This document shows, piece by piece, positions 16,973-23,944 of a stretch of DNA of 38,119 bases; the first letter of the stretch is position 1; each line of letters opens with the position of its first letter. The notes below the pieces were generated by a model that was not told the origin of the DNA, did no database searches, and worked only from the letters and a program-made list of their open reading frames with translations. The position numbers and the translations under genes are program-made. This DNA comes from Aquificales bacterium (GTDB taxonomy: Bacteria > Aquificota > Aquificia > Aquificales > Aquificaceae), in NCBI GenBank assembly GCA_027037055.1, contig JALWBR010000007.1:1-38119 (forward strand), in the 5' to 3' direction.

Positions 16973-18058
16973 ATGGCTGCAAAAATAAAGGTATTCGGGG
17001 TAGGTGGTGGCGGTTGCAATATGGTCAACAGCATGTACAATCTCGCAGAGTATTACACGGATGGAATTGAAATCTATGCAGTTAACACGGATAAACAACA
17101 TCTTGAGATACTTAATGTGCCGAACAAGATCCAGATAGGTGAAAAAATAACTAAGGGATTGGGGGCAGGTGCGGATCCGTCAGTAGGCGAAAAGGCTGCT
17201 CTTGAGGACAGGGACAGGCTTCAGGAAATAATGAAGGATGCGGATATGGTTTTTATATCCGCAGGTCTCGGCGGAGGTACTGGAACAGGAGCAGCACCGG
17301 TTATAGCAGGTTTGGCTAAGGAGATGGGCATACTCACGGTGGCGGTGGTTACACTTCCCTTCAGCTTTGAAGGTACATGGAAGATGGAAAGGGCACTTAA
17401 AGGATTGGAAGAGCTCAAAAAGAATGTGGATACATATATAGTTATACACAATCAAAAGCTCAGTGAACTTGATTTGCCAGAAACAAAGAATATGACCATA
17501 GGTTCCGCTTTTAAGATGGTTGATTCCGTATTAGCAAAAACGGTTTACGGGATTACAAGTACAATCGTAGTACCATCCCTAATAAATGTGGACTTTGCAG
17601 ATGTGAAAACCATAATGCACAACGGAGGTCTCGGATTGATAGGAATAGGCGACGGAGAGGGACCTGATAAGATAGAAGAGGTTGTTCAAAAGGTAATAAA
17701 CAGCCCGCTTCTTGAAGGAAATACCATAGCAGGTGCAAGAAGGCTCCTGCTCACCATCTGGGTAAGTGAAGACACCCCCTACAGCGAAGTTGAAGAAGCT
17801 ATTAACAGAATAAGGCTCAATGCTGATGAAAACGCCGTTCTTATTTTCGGTGCCATGGTTGACAACTCAAGAACAGATTACATTAGGATATCTACTATAG
17901 CAACGGATTTCGGTGAAACACAGCAAAATAAACAACCAGAATTGAAGGTTGTTGAAAAACAAACGGAAACCTATAGAATACCAGCAGTGAATCAGGGCTA
18001 TAACAACGAGGACATAGAAAATATCCCCGCTATAGTAAGGAGATCAAGAAGAATATAA
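16973..18058 (+). CDS. ftsZ: Cell division protein FtsZ
   Basis: Tubulin-like GTPase that forms the Z ring. The 361-residue protein has the N-terminal GVGGGGCNMVN (9-19), the tubulin signature GGGTGTGAAPV (100-110), the T7 catalytic region (SLINVDFADV, with the two acidic residues) and a short linker ending in DIENIPAIVRRSRRI. That tail resembles the conserved C-terminal peptide that binds FtsA, although Ile-Val replaces the usual Phe-Leu. Aquifex FtsZ, as I recall it, also ends with an IPAVIRR-type tail. AGGAGG precedes the ATG. It is the last gene of the operon starting at 9915. A promoter for rpsB overlaps the region just after the stop. Confidence 0.98.
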   Translation: MAAKIKVFGVGGGGCNMVNSMYNLAEYYTDGIEIYAVNTDKQHLEILNVPNKIQIGEKITKGLGAGADPSVGEKAALEDRDRLQEIMKDADMVFISAGLGGGTGTGAAPVIAGLAKEMGILTVAVVTLPFSFEGTWKMERALKGLEELKKNVDTYIVIHNQKLSELDLPETKNMTIGSAFKMVDSVLAKTVYGITSTIVVPSLINVDFADVKTIMHNGGLGLIGIGDGEGPDKIEEVVQKVINSPLLEGNTIAGARRLLLTIWVSEDTPYSEVEEAINRIRLNADENAVLIFGAMVDNSRTDYIRISTIATDFGETQQNKQPELKVVEKQTETYRIPAVNQGYNNEDIENIPAIVRRSRRI

Positions 18059-18064
18059 ATTTTC

Positions 18065-18073
18065 TGATATAAT
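18065..18073 (+). promoter_or_regulatory. Putative rpsB-tsf-pyrH promoter, extended -10
   Basis: TGATATAAT (18065-18073), a textbook extended -10, sits 7 bases after the ftsZ stop. Transcription would begin near 18080, giving an rpsB leader of about 84 nucleotides that contains the full pseudoknot at 18091-18150. No good -35 is visible within ftsZ. Confidence 0.7.
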
Positions 18074-18090
18074 TTACTTACATTAAAACG

Positions 18091-18155
18091 CACCTTTCCC
18101 CGCTTGGGTTGCCCGCATGTGCGGGTGCGGGAAAGGGTGGCGAAACCCAAGGAGG
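18091..18155 (+). promoter_or_regulatory. Candidate S2 autoregulatory leader: H-type pseudoknot at the rpsB ribosome-binding site
   Basis: Three helices can be drawn by eye. Stem A pairs 18091-18103 (CACCTTTCCCCGC) with 18127-18139 (GCGGGAAAGGGTG), 12 pairs with single-base bulges at 18101 and 18135. Hairpin C, inside it, pairs CCCGC (18112-18116) with GCGGG (18121-18125) around ATGT. Stem B pairs TTGGGTT (18104-18110), which lies inside stem A, with AACCCAA (18144-18150), which lies beyond it, giving 7 perfect pairs and an A-B-A'-B' pseudoknot. Stem B ends on the A of AGGAGG (18150-18155), 8 bases before the rpsB ATG, so folding or S2 binding could block initiation. Autogenous control of rpsB-tsf by S2 is established in E. 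coli; this structure is inferred. Confidence 0.75.
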
Positions 18156-18163
18156 TATATGTT

Positions 18164-18991
18164 ATGGCAGTTATCTCAATGAAAGACCTGCTTGAGGCGG
18201 GGGTCCACTTCGGTCACGGAAAGGGAAGGTGGAACCCCAAAATGGCACCTTACCTCTACGGGGTAAGGAACGGTATCCATATAATTGACCTTAACAAAAC
18301 CGTTGTGTACCTTGAAAATGCCTATCACTTCGTTGCGGACAGCGTAGCAAAGGGGGCGGAGGTACTTTTCGTCGGAACCAAAAAGCAGGCAAGGGATGTA
18401 ATAAGGGAAGAGGCAGAAAGATGCGGTGCCTTTTATGTATGCGAGAGATGGGTGGGTGGACTGCTTACAAACTTCAGGACGGTAAGAAAGAGCATAATGA
18501 AACTTAGAAAACTTGAAATAATGGAAGAAGAAGGAATATTTGATGTCCTTCCCAAAAAGGAAGTAAGGAAGCTGAGAAGAAACATGGAAAAACTGAGAAA
18601 GCTGTACAGCGGTATAAGGAACATGGAGAGGATACCCGATATACTTTGGATAGTTGACACGGTAAGGGAAAGGATAGCTGTGGAAGAGGCAAAGAAACTG
18701 GGAATAACCATAGTTGCAATAGCGGATTCAAACTGCGATCCGGACGATATAGACTACATCATACCAGGTAACGATGATGCCATAAAATCTATCAAGCTTC
18801 TTACCTCAAAGATAGCGGATGCGGTTATAGAAGGTAAAACAAGGAAAGAAAGTGCGGAAGAGGTTGAAACAGAAGTTGTTAAAAGGCAAGTTGTTACCGT
18901 TGCGGAAGATGAAAGGGCCCTCTTTGAGAAAGCCATGGAAATGTCGGAAAAGTATGAGGAAATTGATAAAGATACAATAGAGTACGAATAA
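18164..18991 (+). CDS. rpsB: Ribosomal protein S2
   Basis: Small-subunit protein S2 (uS2) of 275 residues. The start [18 protein letters not shown] is typical, followed by [47 protein letters not shown] and PDILWIVD, in normal order. The C-terminus has a short acidic extension (about 235-275) beyond the conserved core. The frame runs upstream to 18104, but AAGGAGGT at 18149-18156 sets the ATG at 18164. It is first in the rpsB-tsf-pyrH string, a very common bacterial order, here joined downstream of the division operon. The leader before it appears regulatory. Confidence 0.98.
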
Positions 18992-19006
18992 TAAGGAGGT
19001 GTTTTA

Positions 19007-20607
<1,601 letters not shown>

Positions 20608-20619
20608 GGGGGTATAAAT

Positions 20620-22233
20620 ATGAAAATACTCGGGGAAGGAGTATTTGATTTAAATAAATTGATCGGGGAGCTTTACAGGGGAACTGATAAAAGTACAGCG
20701 AGCATATTTAAAATATTCAAGATAGGAAAGAAGTTTGACAAGCTTCCGAGGGGAATATGCGGGCGTAGCAGGAACTCCACATCCCTCATGGTTACGGATA
20801 AGGTAGAATTAGAAATGAGCCTTCACTTTGAAAATGTAAAAATAGAAGGTAAAGAACCGCATAGCACGATAATTATTAAAGGAGGTAGGGTAACTTTTGA
20901 AAATGTTTCCTTTGAATCTGTATCAATAGAAGTGGTAAAGGACGCTTATGTGTTTTTCTCTGGATGTGTATTTAAGAAAACGGACCTACCCATAATAGGT
21001 AAAGATAGCGCAAGGATAAAAATAGACGGCGGGGAGATATTCAGATATATAAAGGGAAGAAAAGTAAAATTATGCGATAAAGCAATGCTTTTGAACGCGA
21101 AAGAGCTTATGCATCCCCTTAAGCTGGACCCTTTAACAGTATTACAAAGCCTTTCCTTTGAAACTCTCACAGCGGTACCCTACATAGAGGTAACGGAACC
21201 GATCATTATTGAGGAGAATACGGAGATAGGAAATCCTAAAACCCCAATAGTAATTAAGTTTAAAACCGCGCCCGCCATCATAGTTCCGGACGGAATCAGC
21301 TTGAAGCTGAAAAATATATTCATAGAAGGTTCGGTTCACAGGGAAAAGGATAGATCCCCCCTTATATACCTTGAGCCAAAAGCTAACCTTGAGATAAATG
21401 AGTGTCATATAAACAACGGAGAAATAGCCTTCCTCTTAAAGAATGCCCACTTATCAATAAGCAGGTCGGAGATAAAAAACTTCAGGGATTATGCCATTAA
21501 GTGCACAGATTCTTCAGTTCTGGAAATGAAAAGCTCAAATGTTGTGGGATGCAAAGGTTTTATATATTCGGAATACAGCTCCCATATTTCAATAGTAGAT
21601 TCAATGATTAACAACTGCGAAACGCCCGTATTTAACATAAACAGCGGTTCAAAACTGATCATTAAATCCACGCAGATAAAAGAGTTTAAAGGATCAAACT
21701 ATTGTATAAACATGGACGAATCAACAGCTTACTTAGAAAGGATCAACCTTTCTTCCATGAGGGAAGGAACAAGCGGAATATACGCGGGCAATATGTCAAA
21801 GATAAAAATAGTCAGTTCGGTAATAAAAAATATTGATTCCCACTGTCTTTCAATACATAACAATACGGTAGGAGAGATAATTAAATGTAATTTAATAGGT
21901 AATTCAAGGAGATCCGGTTCACACGCCCAAATATGGTTAAAGGCATCAAGGGCTAATGTACTAAATACAAATATAGAAAGGTCTCCCGCAGGGAACGGTA
22001 TAGCAGTTACAGACTGGGCAAAAATTTACATAGCAAATTCAAAAATAGCCAACAATAAGGGCTTCGGCATATTTGTTGATAAAACATCAAGTATTACAGG
22101 CGAAAATATAAAAACGGAAGGTAATAGGAAAGGTCTCTTGTCCGAAATAGGAGCCAAGGTACAACTTGAATCGGGATGCATCATTAAGGATGAGATCCAA
22201 GAAGAAATACCTGTTAATTTAAATAAAAAGTGA
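20620..22233 (+). CDS. Right-handed parallel beta-helix protein, function unknown
   Basis: A 537-residue protein, not recognised as a named family. It has no signal peptide and no membrane helix, so it is probably cytosolic. Residues 1-65 are basic and partly helical. From about 66, short strands of 20-25-residue spacing follow one another (FENVKIEG, FENVSFESVSIE, VFFSGCVFKKT). After a break around 150-185, a long regular stack runs from about 190 to 520 with repeated patterns such as LEINECHINNGEIAFLLKN, LEMKSSNVVGC and AKIYIANSKIANNKGFGIF. This is the Asn/Ser-ladder pattern of pectin-lyase-like right-handed beta helices. No catalytic set is evident. AGGGGG precedes the ATG, 12 bases after pyrH, so it is in the rpsB unit. 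A structural or scaffold role is a guess. Confidence 0.85.
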   Translation: MKILGEGVFDLNKLIGELYRGTDKSTASIFKIFKIGKKFDKLPRGICGRSRNSTSLMVTDKVELEMSLHFENVKIEGKEPHSTIIIKGGRVTFENVSFESVSIEVVKDAYVFFSGCVFKKTDLPIIGKDSARIKIDGGEIFRYIKGRKVKLCDKAMLLNAKELMHPLKLDPLTVLQSLSFETLTAVPYIEVTEPIIIEENTEIGNPKTPIVIKFKTAPAIIVPDGISLKLKNIFIEGSVHREKDRSPLIYLEPKANLEINECHINNGEIAFLLKNAHLSISRSEIKNFRDYAIKCTDSSVLEMKSSNVVGCKGFIYSEYSSHISIVDSMINNCETPVFNINSGSKLIIKSTQIKEFKGSNYCINMDESTAYLERINLSSMREGTSGIYAGNMSKIKIVSSVIKNIDSHCLSIHNNTVGEIIKCNLIGNSRRSGSHAQIWLKASRANVLNTNIERSPAGNGIAVTDWAKIYIANSKIANNKGFGIFVDKTSSITGENIKTEGNRKGLLSEIGAKVQLESGCIIKDEIQEEIPVNLNKK

Positions 22234-22239
22234 TAAAAT
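22231..22239 (+). promoter_or_regulatory. Putative asd promoter; stop codon of upstream gene inside extended -10
   Basis: TGATAAAAT (22231-22239): the TGA is the stop codon of the beta-helix gene and also the TG-N of an extended -10. Predicted transcription start is near 22246, three bases before the asd ATG at 22249. No Shine-Dalgarno is present for asd. Confidence 0.5.
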
Positions 22240-22248
22240 CTATGGGCG

Positions 22249-23256
22249 ATGGGATACAGAGTAGCCATTGTAGGAGCTACCGGTGAAGTAGGAAGAAAGT
22301 TTTTACAAGTCCTTGAGGAAAGGAATTTCCCCGTCAATGATATTGTACTTTACGCCTCTTCAAGATCCGCGGGCACAAAGCTAACTTTCAAAGGTGAAAC
22401 CGTTGAAGTAAGGGATATATCAAAGGAAAATAGTTTTAGCGGAATTGATATAGCCTTATTTTCAGCGGGAAGCGGAGTAAGTAAAACCTATGCACCCCTC
22501 TTTGCAAGGGATAACGCGGTAGTTATTGACAATTCATCAGCATGGAGAATGGAGAAGGATGTTCCCCTCGTTGTCCCGGAGGTAAATCCCGAGGATGCTA
22601 AAAACCATAAGGGTATAATAGCCAATCCGAACTGTTCAACAATACAAATGGTTGTTGCCCTAAAACCCATATATGATAAAGTGGGTATAAGCAAGATAAT
22701 AGTTTCAACCTATCAATCCGTATCTGGCGCAGGTGCAAAGGCTATAAGGGAACTTGAAGATCAGGTAAGGATGTGGTGCAGGGGTGAGGAATTTCCTAAG
22801 GAGAATTACATACCGAGGAGGATAGCCTTTAATGTCGTACCCCATATAGACATCTTCTTAGAAAACCTTTATACAAAGGAAGAGATGAAGATGGTTAACG
22901 AGACGAGAAAAATACTGCATGATCCGGATATCAAAATTAATGCAACTACTGTCAGAGTCCCAGTATTTTACGGGCATGCGGAGGCAATAACCATAGAAAC
23001 AAAGGAATTTATATCTCCTCAAGAGGCAAGGGATATATTAAGCAAAGGTAAGGGCATAGTTGTTATGGATGATCCAGAAAACAAGGAATACCCCACACCC
23101 ATAGATGCGGAAGGAAAGGATGAGGTTTTTGTAGGAAGGATAAGGGAATCCTTAGTTTTTGAAAGGGGATTGTCCATGTGGGTGGTTGCGGATAATATAA
23201 GGAAGGGAGCTGCAACTAATGCTGTTCAAATAGCGGAGTTAATTATAAATCAATGA
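22249..23256 (+). CDS. asd: Aspartate-semialdehyde dehydrogenase
   Basis: Reduces aspartyl phosphate to aspartate semialdehyde with NADPH, the branch point for lysine/DAP, threonine and methionine. The 335-residue protein has the Rossmann motif IVGATGEVGRKF (7-18), ASSRSAGTKL, NPNCSTIQM with the catalytic Cys129, SVSGAGAKA, and VPVFYGHAE with the catalytic His near 243. The first ATG (22242) is out of frame; the ATG at 22249 gives the normal GYRVAIVGA start. There is no Shine-Dalgarno and a promoter element lies immediately upstream, so the transcript is likely leaderless. It supplies the pathway of dapB (10160). The 3' end overlaps hisA by 14 bases. Confidence 0.97.
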   Translation: MGYRVAIVGATGEVGRKFLQVLEERNFPVNDIVLYASSRSAGTKLTFKGETVEVRDISKENSFSGIDIALFSAGSGVSKTYAPLFARDNAVVIDNSSAWRMEKDVPLVVPEVNPEDAKNHKGIIANPNCSTIQMVVALKPIYDKVGISKIIVSTYQSVSGAGAKAIRELEDQVRMWCRGEEFPKENYIPRRIAFNVVPHIDIFLENLYTKEEMKMVNETRKILHDPDIKINATTVRVPVFYGHAEAITIETKEFISPQEARDILSKGKGIVVMDDPENKEYPTPIDAEGKDEVFVGRIRESLVFERGLSMWVVADNIRKGAATNAVQIAELIINQ

Positions 23257-23944
23257 GACCCTCATAAATAGCTTTCCCGACAACAACAAAATCCACAACA
23301 TCGCTCAATTTTTTTACATCTTCCAAAGAAGAAACACCTCCGGAAGCTATTAAGGGCTTTGAAGTCATTGATCTTATAACCCTATAAGGTTCAACATCAA
23401 CACCCTCAAGGGTTCCGTCCCTCTCCACAATAGTGTAAAGATAACCCCACAGTGGAATGTTATCATAACGCTTTACAAGATCATAGGGCTTTAAATCCGA
23501 AGAGGACTGCCATCCGGAAACCGCCACCCTACCGCCTTTACTGTCTATCGCAAGTATAATCTTATTCTTAAATTTATAAACCATACGCTCAAAAGCATCA
23601 GCATCGGTCACGGCAACGGTCCCGAGGACAAAGTAGTTTATACCCATGTCTTCGTAAAGTGATATATGTTCGCATGTCCTGAGTCCTCCGCCGAGTTCAA
23701 TTTCCCCGCGAAAGTTCTCCCTTATACGCCTTATGGCTTCACCATTTGCTGGTTCTCCTCTCTTGGCACCGTCAAGATCCACCACATGTAGCCTCTTAAA
23801 TCCGGAAGAATCAAAAAGCTCTGCAACGGAAGACGGATCATCCCTGTACTTTTTTACCTTTGAAAAATCTCCTTTCTCCAACCTTACAACCTTACCGTCC
23901 TTCAAATCAATGGCGGGTATTATAAATTCCTTCAAATTTACCAT
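23243..23944 (-). CDS. hisA: ProFAR isomerase (phosphoribosylformimino-AICAR-phosphate ribotide isomerase)
   Basis: Catalyses the Amadori rearrangement in histidine synthesis. The 233-residue (beta/alpha)8 protein shows the internal half-repeat of HisA/HisF: IIPAIDLKDGKVVRLEKGD near the N-terminus (general base Asp13), HVVDLDGAK, IELGGGLRT, a central LAIDSKGGRVAVSGWQ (second catalytic Asp) and the phosphate loops IASGGVSS and VVVGKAIYEG. It stands alone here, 10 kb from hisC, so the histidine genes are dispersed. A minus-strand TATAAT (23962-23957) gives a leader of about 6 nucleotides. It is convergent with asd and divergent from nuoE. Confidence 0.96.
   Translation of the reverse strand: MVNLKEFIIPAIDLKDGKVVRLEKGDFSKVKKYRDDPSSVAELFDSSGFKRLHVVDLDGAKRGEPANGEAIRRIRENFRGEIELGGGLRTCEHISLYEDMGINYFVLGTVAVTDADAFERMVYKFKNKIILAIDSKGGRVAVSGWQSSSDLKPYDLVKRYDNIPLWGYLYTIVERDGTLEGVDVEPYRVIRSMTSKPLIASGGVSSLEDVKKLSDVVDFVVVGKAIYEGLIDL

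Follow-up and report, generated by a model that had tools for sequence, protein, structure and literature searches.

A 537-residue protein predicted to fold as a right-handed beta-helix, and lacking an export signal, is encoded directly behind rpsB, tsf and pyrH in a contig of an Aquificales bacterium (GCA_027037055.1, JALWBR010000007.1). The locus, which lies in the stretch of 38,119 nucleotides that was analysed as a whole and is referred to here as the window, raises the question of what such a protein does in the cytosol and among such neighbours. The initial annotation suggested a scaffold, filament or binding platform, a role that is plausible. The best explanation, put forward tentatively, is that the protein is a cytosolic, probably non-enzymatic scaffold docked by a conserved cationic amphipathic N-terminus, with a layout resembling that of the bactofilins without being a bactofilin.

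Genomic context of the beta-helix gene

The gene and its surroundings comprise the following features:

18089–18155, + strand: 5' leader of rpsB, upstream of the whole run, with stem P1 (CCTTTCCC/GGGAAAGG) and a pseudoknot (CTTGGGTT/AACCCAAG)
18164–18991, + strand: rpsB, ribosomal protein uS2 (PF00318, E=4.7e-94)
19007–19882, + strand: tsf, elongation factor Ts (PF00889, E=4.3e-69)
19885–20607, + strand: pyrH, UMP kinase (PF00696, E=3.9e-38), with a homologue in 41 of 41 genomes
20608–20619, + strand: gap of 12 nt from the pyrH stop to the ATG, equal in length in four genomes, with the ribosome-binding site GGGGGTATAAAT
20620–22233, + strand: beta-helix gene without export signal, an ORF of 537 aa
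22249–23256, + strand: asd-like aspartate-semialdehyde dehydrogenase gene (PF02774, E=4.5e-56; PF01118, E=5.4e-37), 15 nt downstream

The gene order is ftsA, ftsZ, rpsB, tsf, pyrH, the beta-helix gene and asd. With the pyrH stop at 20607 and the ATG at 20620, the 12-base spacing given in the initial annotation is exact, and the successive gaps from rpsB to asd measure 15, 2, 12 and 15 nt. Because these gaps are short and a simple scan of positions 17900–23400 found no terminator-like site on the + strand, the genes from rpsB to asd are likely to form one co-transcribed run. The same order is found in the four genomes of the genus, while the surroundings of rpsB–tsf–pyrH vary in other genera, in which different genes follow pyrH, often an ORF of 181–186 aa whose N-terminus reads like that of frr, the ribosome recycling factor.

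In all four genomes the TGA stop of pyrH stands in frame with the ATG of the beta-helix gene, 12 nt apart (window positions 20605–20620). A read-through fusion of PyrH and the beta-helix protein is made possible by this shared frame and is judged unlikely; ordinary initiation is the likelier course, since the ribosome-binding site is retained, reading GAGGT in one congener.

A candidate regulatory leader upstream of rpsB

The pseudoknot of the leader pairs a loop with the bases immediately preceding the Shine-Dalgarno sequence of rpsB, at which it ends. Among the leaders compared, that of the window (18089–18155) and those of loci L071–L089, both P1 (8–10 pairs) and the pseudoknot (6–8 pairs) are kept in 16 of 16 Aquificales sequences, with the letters changed on both sides of the pairings. 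P1 thus occurs as CCTTTCCC/GGGAAAGG or CTCTAATC/GATTAGAG and the pseudoknot as CTTGGGTT/AACCCAAG, CGGGTT/AACCCG or AAAAGGGT/ACCCTTTT, and at most 2 of 300 shuffles of each leader sequence do as well. No Rfam match is listed at the leader in the window itself; in the relative L073, the t44 model scores 25.1 bits (E=0.0018), which lies below its gathering threshold of 44 and thus falls short of t44 membership.

In Escherichia coli, uS2 represses the rpsB–tsf mRNA via its 5' UTR (PMC10931766). Judged from its sequence, the Aquificales leader is a candidate, and probably an instance, of a uS2 autoregulatory element far outside the gamma-proteobacteria. By inference, the beta-helix gene would be subject to the same uS2 feedback as rpsB.

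Fold and anatomy of the protein

The initial annotation recognised a beta-helix, and Pfam and AlphaFold2 agree on this fold; a structure other than a beta-helix was not obtained. The protein matches Beta_helix (PF13229) with E=2.7e-17 and NosD (PF05048) with E=3.5e-5, just over the cut-off, and its hydrophobicity is autocorrelated at 23 and 45 residues, which, together with the modelled strands, places it among the right-handed beta-helices with their stacked coils of ~22–24 residues and parallel sheets. From an alignment of four close sequences only, AlphaFold2 reached a pLDDT of 72.6 for the full length, exceeding 90 over most of residues 250–400, and a pLDDT of 85.2 with a pTM of 0.87 for the second block alone. 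Two blocks joined by a break near residues 150–185 had been described, and the model reproduces them with closely similar, approximate boundaries:

20620–20778, + strand: residues 1–53, basic N-terminal region (pI ~10.1; low AlphaFold2 confidence)
20779–21048, + strand: residues 54–143, beta-helix block 1, ~4 coils (AlphaFold2 strands, spanning 54–136 in the full-length model)
21049–21180, + strand: residues 144–187, non-repetitive, partly helical break (AlphaFold2 helices at 160–164 and 171–177; pLDDT ~40–55)
21181–22191, + strand: residues 188–524, beta-helix block 2, ~14 coils of ~23 residues (AlphaFold2 of the block alone)
22192–22230, + strand: residues 525–537, C-terminal tail, invariant in four genomes and predicted by AlphaFold2 to have no capping helix

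Foldseek searches of the PDB and of viral models, made with the full model and with block 2, returned only generic beta-helices at ~10% identity and a TM of at most ~0.54, among them alginate lyases, tailspikes, pertactin-like adhesins, GH87, AlgE epimerases and phage appendages. For the predicted structure, this result confirms the class of fold without narrowing it further. Sequence-level searches of NCBIfam, PADLOC and the PDB gave no match. A clear match to a characterised enzyme family was one of the results that, by the initial annotation, would refute its reading, and none was found in Pfam, NCBIfam or PDB sequences, where the protein belongs neither to the polysaccharide lyases and epimerases nor to GH28 or GH87. 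A known enzyme, as far as the absence of any Pfam or NCBIfam enzyme model and of any PDB sequence match can tell, and a defence protein, for which PADLOC gave no match, were both discarded as candidates.

The basic N-terminus and the lack of an export signal

An N-terminal export signal is the defining mark of secreted beta-helix proteins, and this protein has none. The N-terminus contains no hydrophobic segment, the best 19-residue window starting in residues 1–44 scoring 0.46, and in each of the four genomes the stop codon of pyrH itself precedes the ATG in frame by five codons. Because of this stop, an upstream start cannot add a signal peptide; a hidden signal peptide or alternative start is thus excluded, and the earlier claim that the protein has no export signal holds.

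Equally well founded was the description of a basic N-terminal region: residues 1–52 have a pI of 10.1 and a charge of +6.5, in a protein whose overall pI is 9.0 and whose lysine content is 10%. Cationic amphipathic stretches are located at residues ~10–21 and ~31–47, and when 11-residue windows are ranked by amphipathic moment over the full length, each of the top eight falls within residues 10–47. Residues 1–53 also form the least variable long region of the protein.

Distribution and selection

The gene is present in four of the four genomes of its genus, at 90–92% identity, with equal length and identical neighbours; a four-sequence profile run against 136 Aquificota genomes detected it in none of the remaining 132. 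No sequence match was found in the phage (50,697 records) and plasmid collections, and none in IMG/VR by pattern search. As far as sequence comparison reaches, the fold is a common one but the family an orphan, confined to one Aquificaceae genus; the scan of named genomes is sensitive to close relatives only, and distant relatives may exist outside Aquificota. A recently mobile gene was also considered and rejected, there being no phage or plasmid match, no mobile genes nearby and a stable order in the four genomes.

Among the members of the genus, the computed dN/dS of the beta-helix gene is 0.056–0.080, beside 0.006–0.037 for pyrH and 0.036–0.092 for tsf, values which show a real, constrained protein under purifying selection. 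Because dN/dS is ~0.07, and with the same length in four genomes, the ORF can be neither spurious nor frameshifted. Variable positions number 7 of 97 in the N-terminus and break, compared with 77 of the 427 coil positions (Fisher p=0.009), an estimate of conservation that rests on four sequences. This lower variability of the non-coil parts, coupled with the amphipathic windows in residues 10–47, suggests, without proving, that the coils are a tolerant framework and that the N-terminus and break are interfaces.

Synonymous change is reduced across residues 60–145 (window 20797–21054), where dS among the four genomes is 0.36, about half the 0.67–0.95 of the remaining gene; noise, recombination and an overlapping signal are all conceivable causes.

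Other beta-helix proteins of the genome

About nine further ORFs of the same genome have Beta_helix matches. The eight that were analysed all carry signal-like hydrophobic N-terminal segments, called from hydropathy and by eye, and have a pI of 4–5; seven of them (C2, C3, C18, C26, C28, C32 and C48) form one paralogous family, with mutual E values of 1e-6 to 1e-70. Genomes of the same genus contain 8–13 Beta_helix matches each, compared with 0–3 in the 37 other relatives searched. The 537-residue protein shares the repeat class and the genome with this family; whereas the family members are acidic and possess signal-like segments, it is basic. Descent as a paralogue of the secreted family was rejected, as there is no significant similarity and a search of its own genome returns the 537-aa protein only. 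Its pI of 9.0, its 10% lysine and this lack of similarity mark it, by the sequences compared, as a separate entity in a genome rich in exported beta-helices.

The acidic paralogous family has at least seven members in the genus (L046, L047, L048, L051, L052, L053 and L054). Several of these paralogues end in a Cys-Gly motif, a hydrophobic stretch and a basic tail, an arrangement resembling a C-terminal sorting signal.

Functional interpretation

On the scaffold explanation, the protein would be co-expressed with translation genes and hence made in proportion to growth. Its basic amphipathic N-terminus would attach it to the inner membrane or an acidic partner, by analogy with bactofilins, the two-block rod would serve as the scaffold and the break at residues ~144–187 may act as a joint or partner site. 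Counted against this are the lack of a confident AlphaFold2 structure for residues 1–53, the predominance of glycan-acting enzymes, tailspikes and adhesins among the Foldseek matches, though all of these are generic, and the true bactofilin and MinC already present in the genus. A much broader proposal, that the protein represents a new class of cytoskeletal or scaffold proteins built as large cytosolic beta-helices, produced in parallel with the translation machinery under uS2 feedback, anchored by a cationic N-terminal peptide and invented in one thermophilic genus, is distinctly unlikely.

An RNA- or ribosome-associated factor, whose basic N-terminus and break would bind rRNA or ribosomes while the rod acts as a spacer, is unlikely, although it would suit the position behind rpsB and tsf and the pI of 9.0 overall and 10.1 at the N-terminus, set against the acidic secreted beta-helices of the genome. 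However, Pfam detects no known RNA-binding domain, and the variable surroundings of rpsB–tsf–pyrH in other genera make the neighbourhood alone weak evidence. Most solved beta-helices act through the groove of the helix, and a cytosolic enzyme acting in this way on a sugar, nucleotide sugar or intracellular polymer would be consistent with a Foldseek list composed mostly of polysaccharide lyases, epimerases, glycosidases and tailspikes, as well as with the invariance of W439, W466, H408 and H435 in four genomes. Nevertheless, any long beta-helix yields such a list, with ~10% identity and a TM of at most ~0.54 throughout, no Pfam or NCBIfam enzyme model applies and a polymer substrate is not expected in the cytosol; such an enzyme is quite improbable.

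The pre-neck appendage and tailspike matches in Foldseek (Bacillus phage Karezi, TMq 0.51, rmsd 4.1) would accord with a phage origin, a tailspike or appendage protein having been domesticated and taken into the operon. This origin is very improbable, given that tailspikes match any beta-helix, that no phage genes surround the locus and that neither the phage records nor the pattern search of IMG/VR produced a match. Finally, the signal-like segments seen in the eight other genomic beta-helices that were analysed invite the view that this one too is an ordinary exported beta-helix with a mis-read start or a non-classical route of export. That view is barely credible in the face of the upstream stop in four genomes, the missing hydrophobic stretch, and a pI of 9 and 10% lysine in a protein dissimilar to its exported counterparts of pI 4–5.

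If the scaffold explanation is correct, the few beta-helix proteins known from the bacterial cytosol would gain a large, rigid, heat-stable rod, and the locus would show that a gene specific to one genus is able to establish itself directly behind the essential rpsB–tsf–pyrH genes and be kept there under strong selection. If the role is ordinary, a well-documented orphan family remains. The protein may also lend itself to the engineering of thermostable repeat proteins. The restriction of the gene to one genus, and the separate secreted beta-helix family carried by the same genomes, go beyond the initial annotation.

Comparison with known beta-helix proteins

With the Pfam families Beta_helix (PF13229) and NosD (PF05048) the protein shares a repeat type, the match being to that type rather than to any functional family; most characterised members are exported, whereas the 537-residue protein has no signal peptide and a basic N-terminus. 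A search of the literature for cytosolic beta-helices in Aquificales, and for cytoplasmic proteins with PF13229, turned up no relevant paper.

Cytosolic right-handed beta-helices also include the C-terminal domain of MinC, SufB/SufD, FBXO11 and SHCBP1. The likeness to MinC consists in a cytosolic beta-helix and in the ftsA–ftsZ pair directly upstream of the run in the genus; Pfam lists no MinC_C (PF03775) match in the 537-residue protein, and replacement of MinC was rejected because a normal MinC is encoded elsewhere in the genomes of the genus. Bactofilins are cytosolic beta-helix proteins that are targeted to the membrane by a short N-terminal sequence in which hydrophobic and lysine residues occur (PMC12448750). 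The layout of a basic tail and a beta-helix rod is common to both, but the bactofilin core is single and of ~110 residues, whereas the present protein has ~430 coil residues in blocks of ~90 and 337, with PbH1-type repeats. The bactofilin family PF04519 (BacA, CcmA), whose members assemble into non-polar filaments without nucleotide, is not listed for it at E up to 10, and replacement of a bactofilin was rejected, as the genus has a separate, true one.

The initial annotation considered a cytosolic version of the fold unexpected. The location is supported by the lack of a signal; the surprise was somewhat overstated, as the bactofilins (PMC12448750) and a protein from another family of the order provide precedents. 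The latter, encoded by a 442-aa open frame on the - strand (L067, G027:C3), is a beta-helix without export signal that carries a PCFITTATLKALGG motif in the C-terminal portion and is unrelated by sequence to the 537-residue protein.
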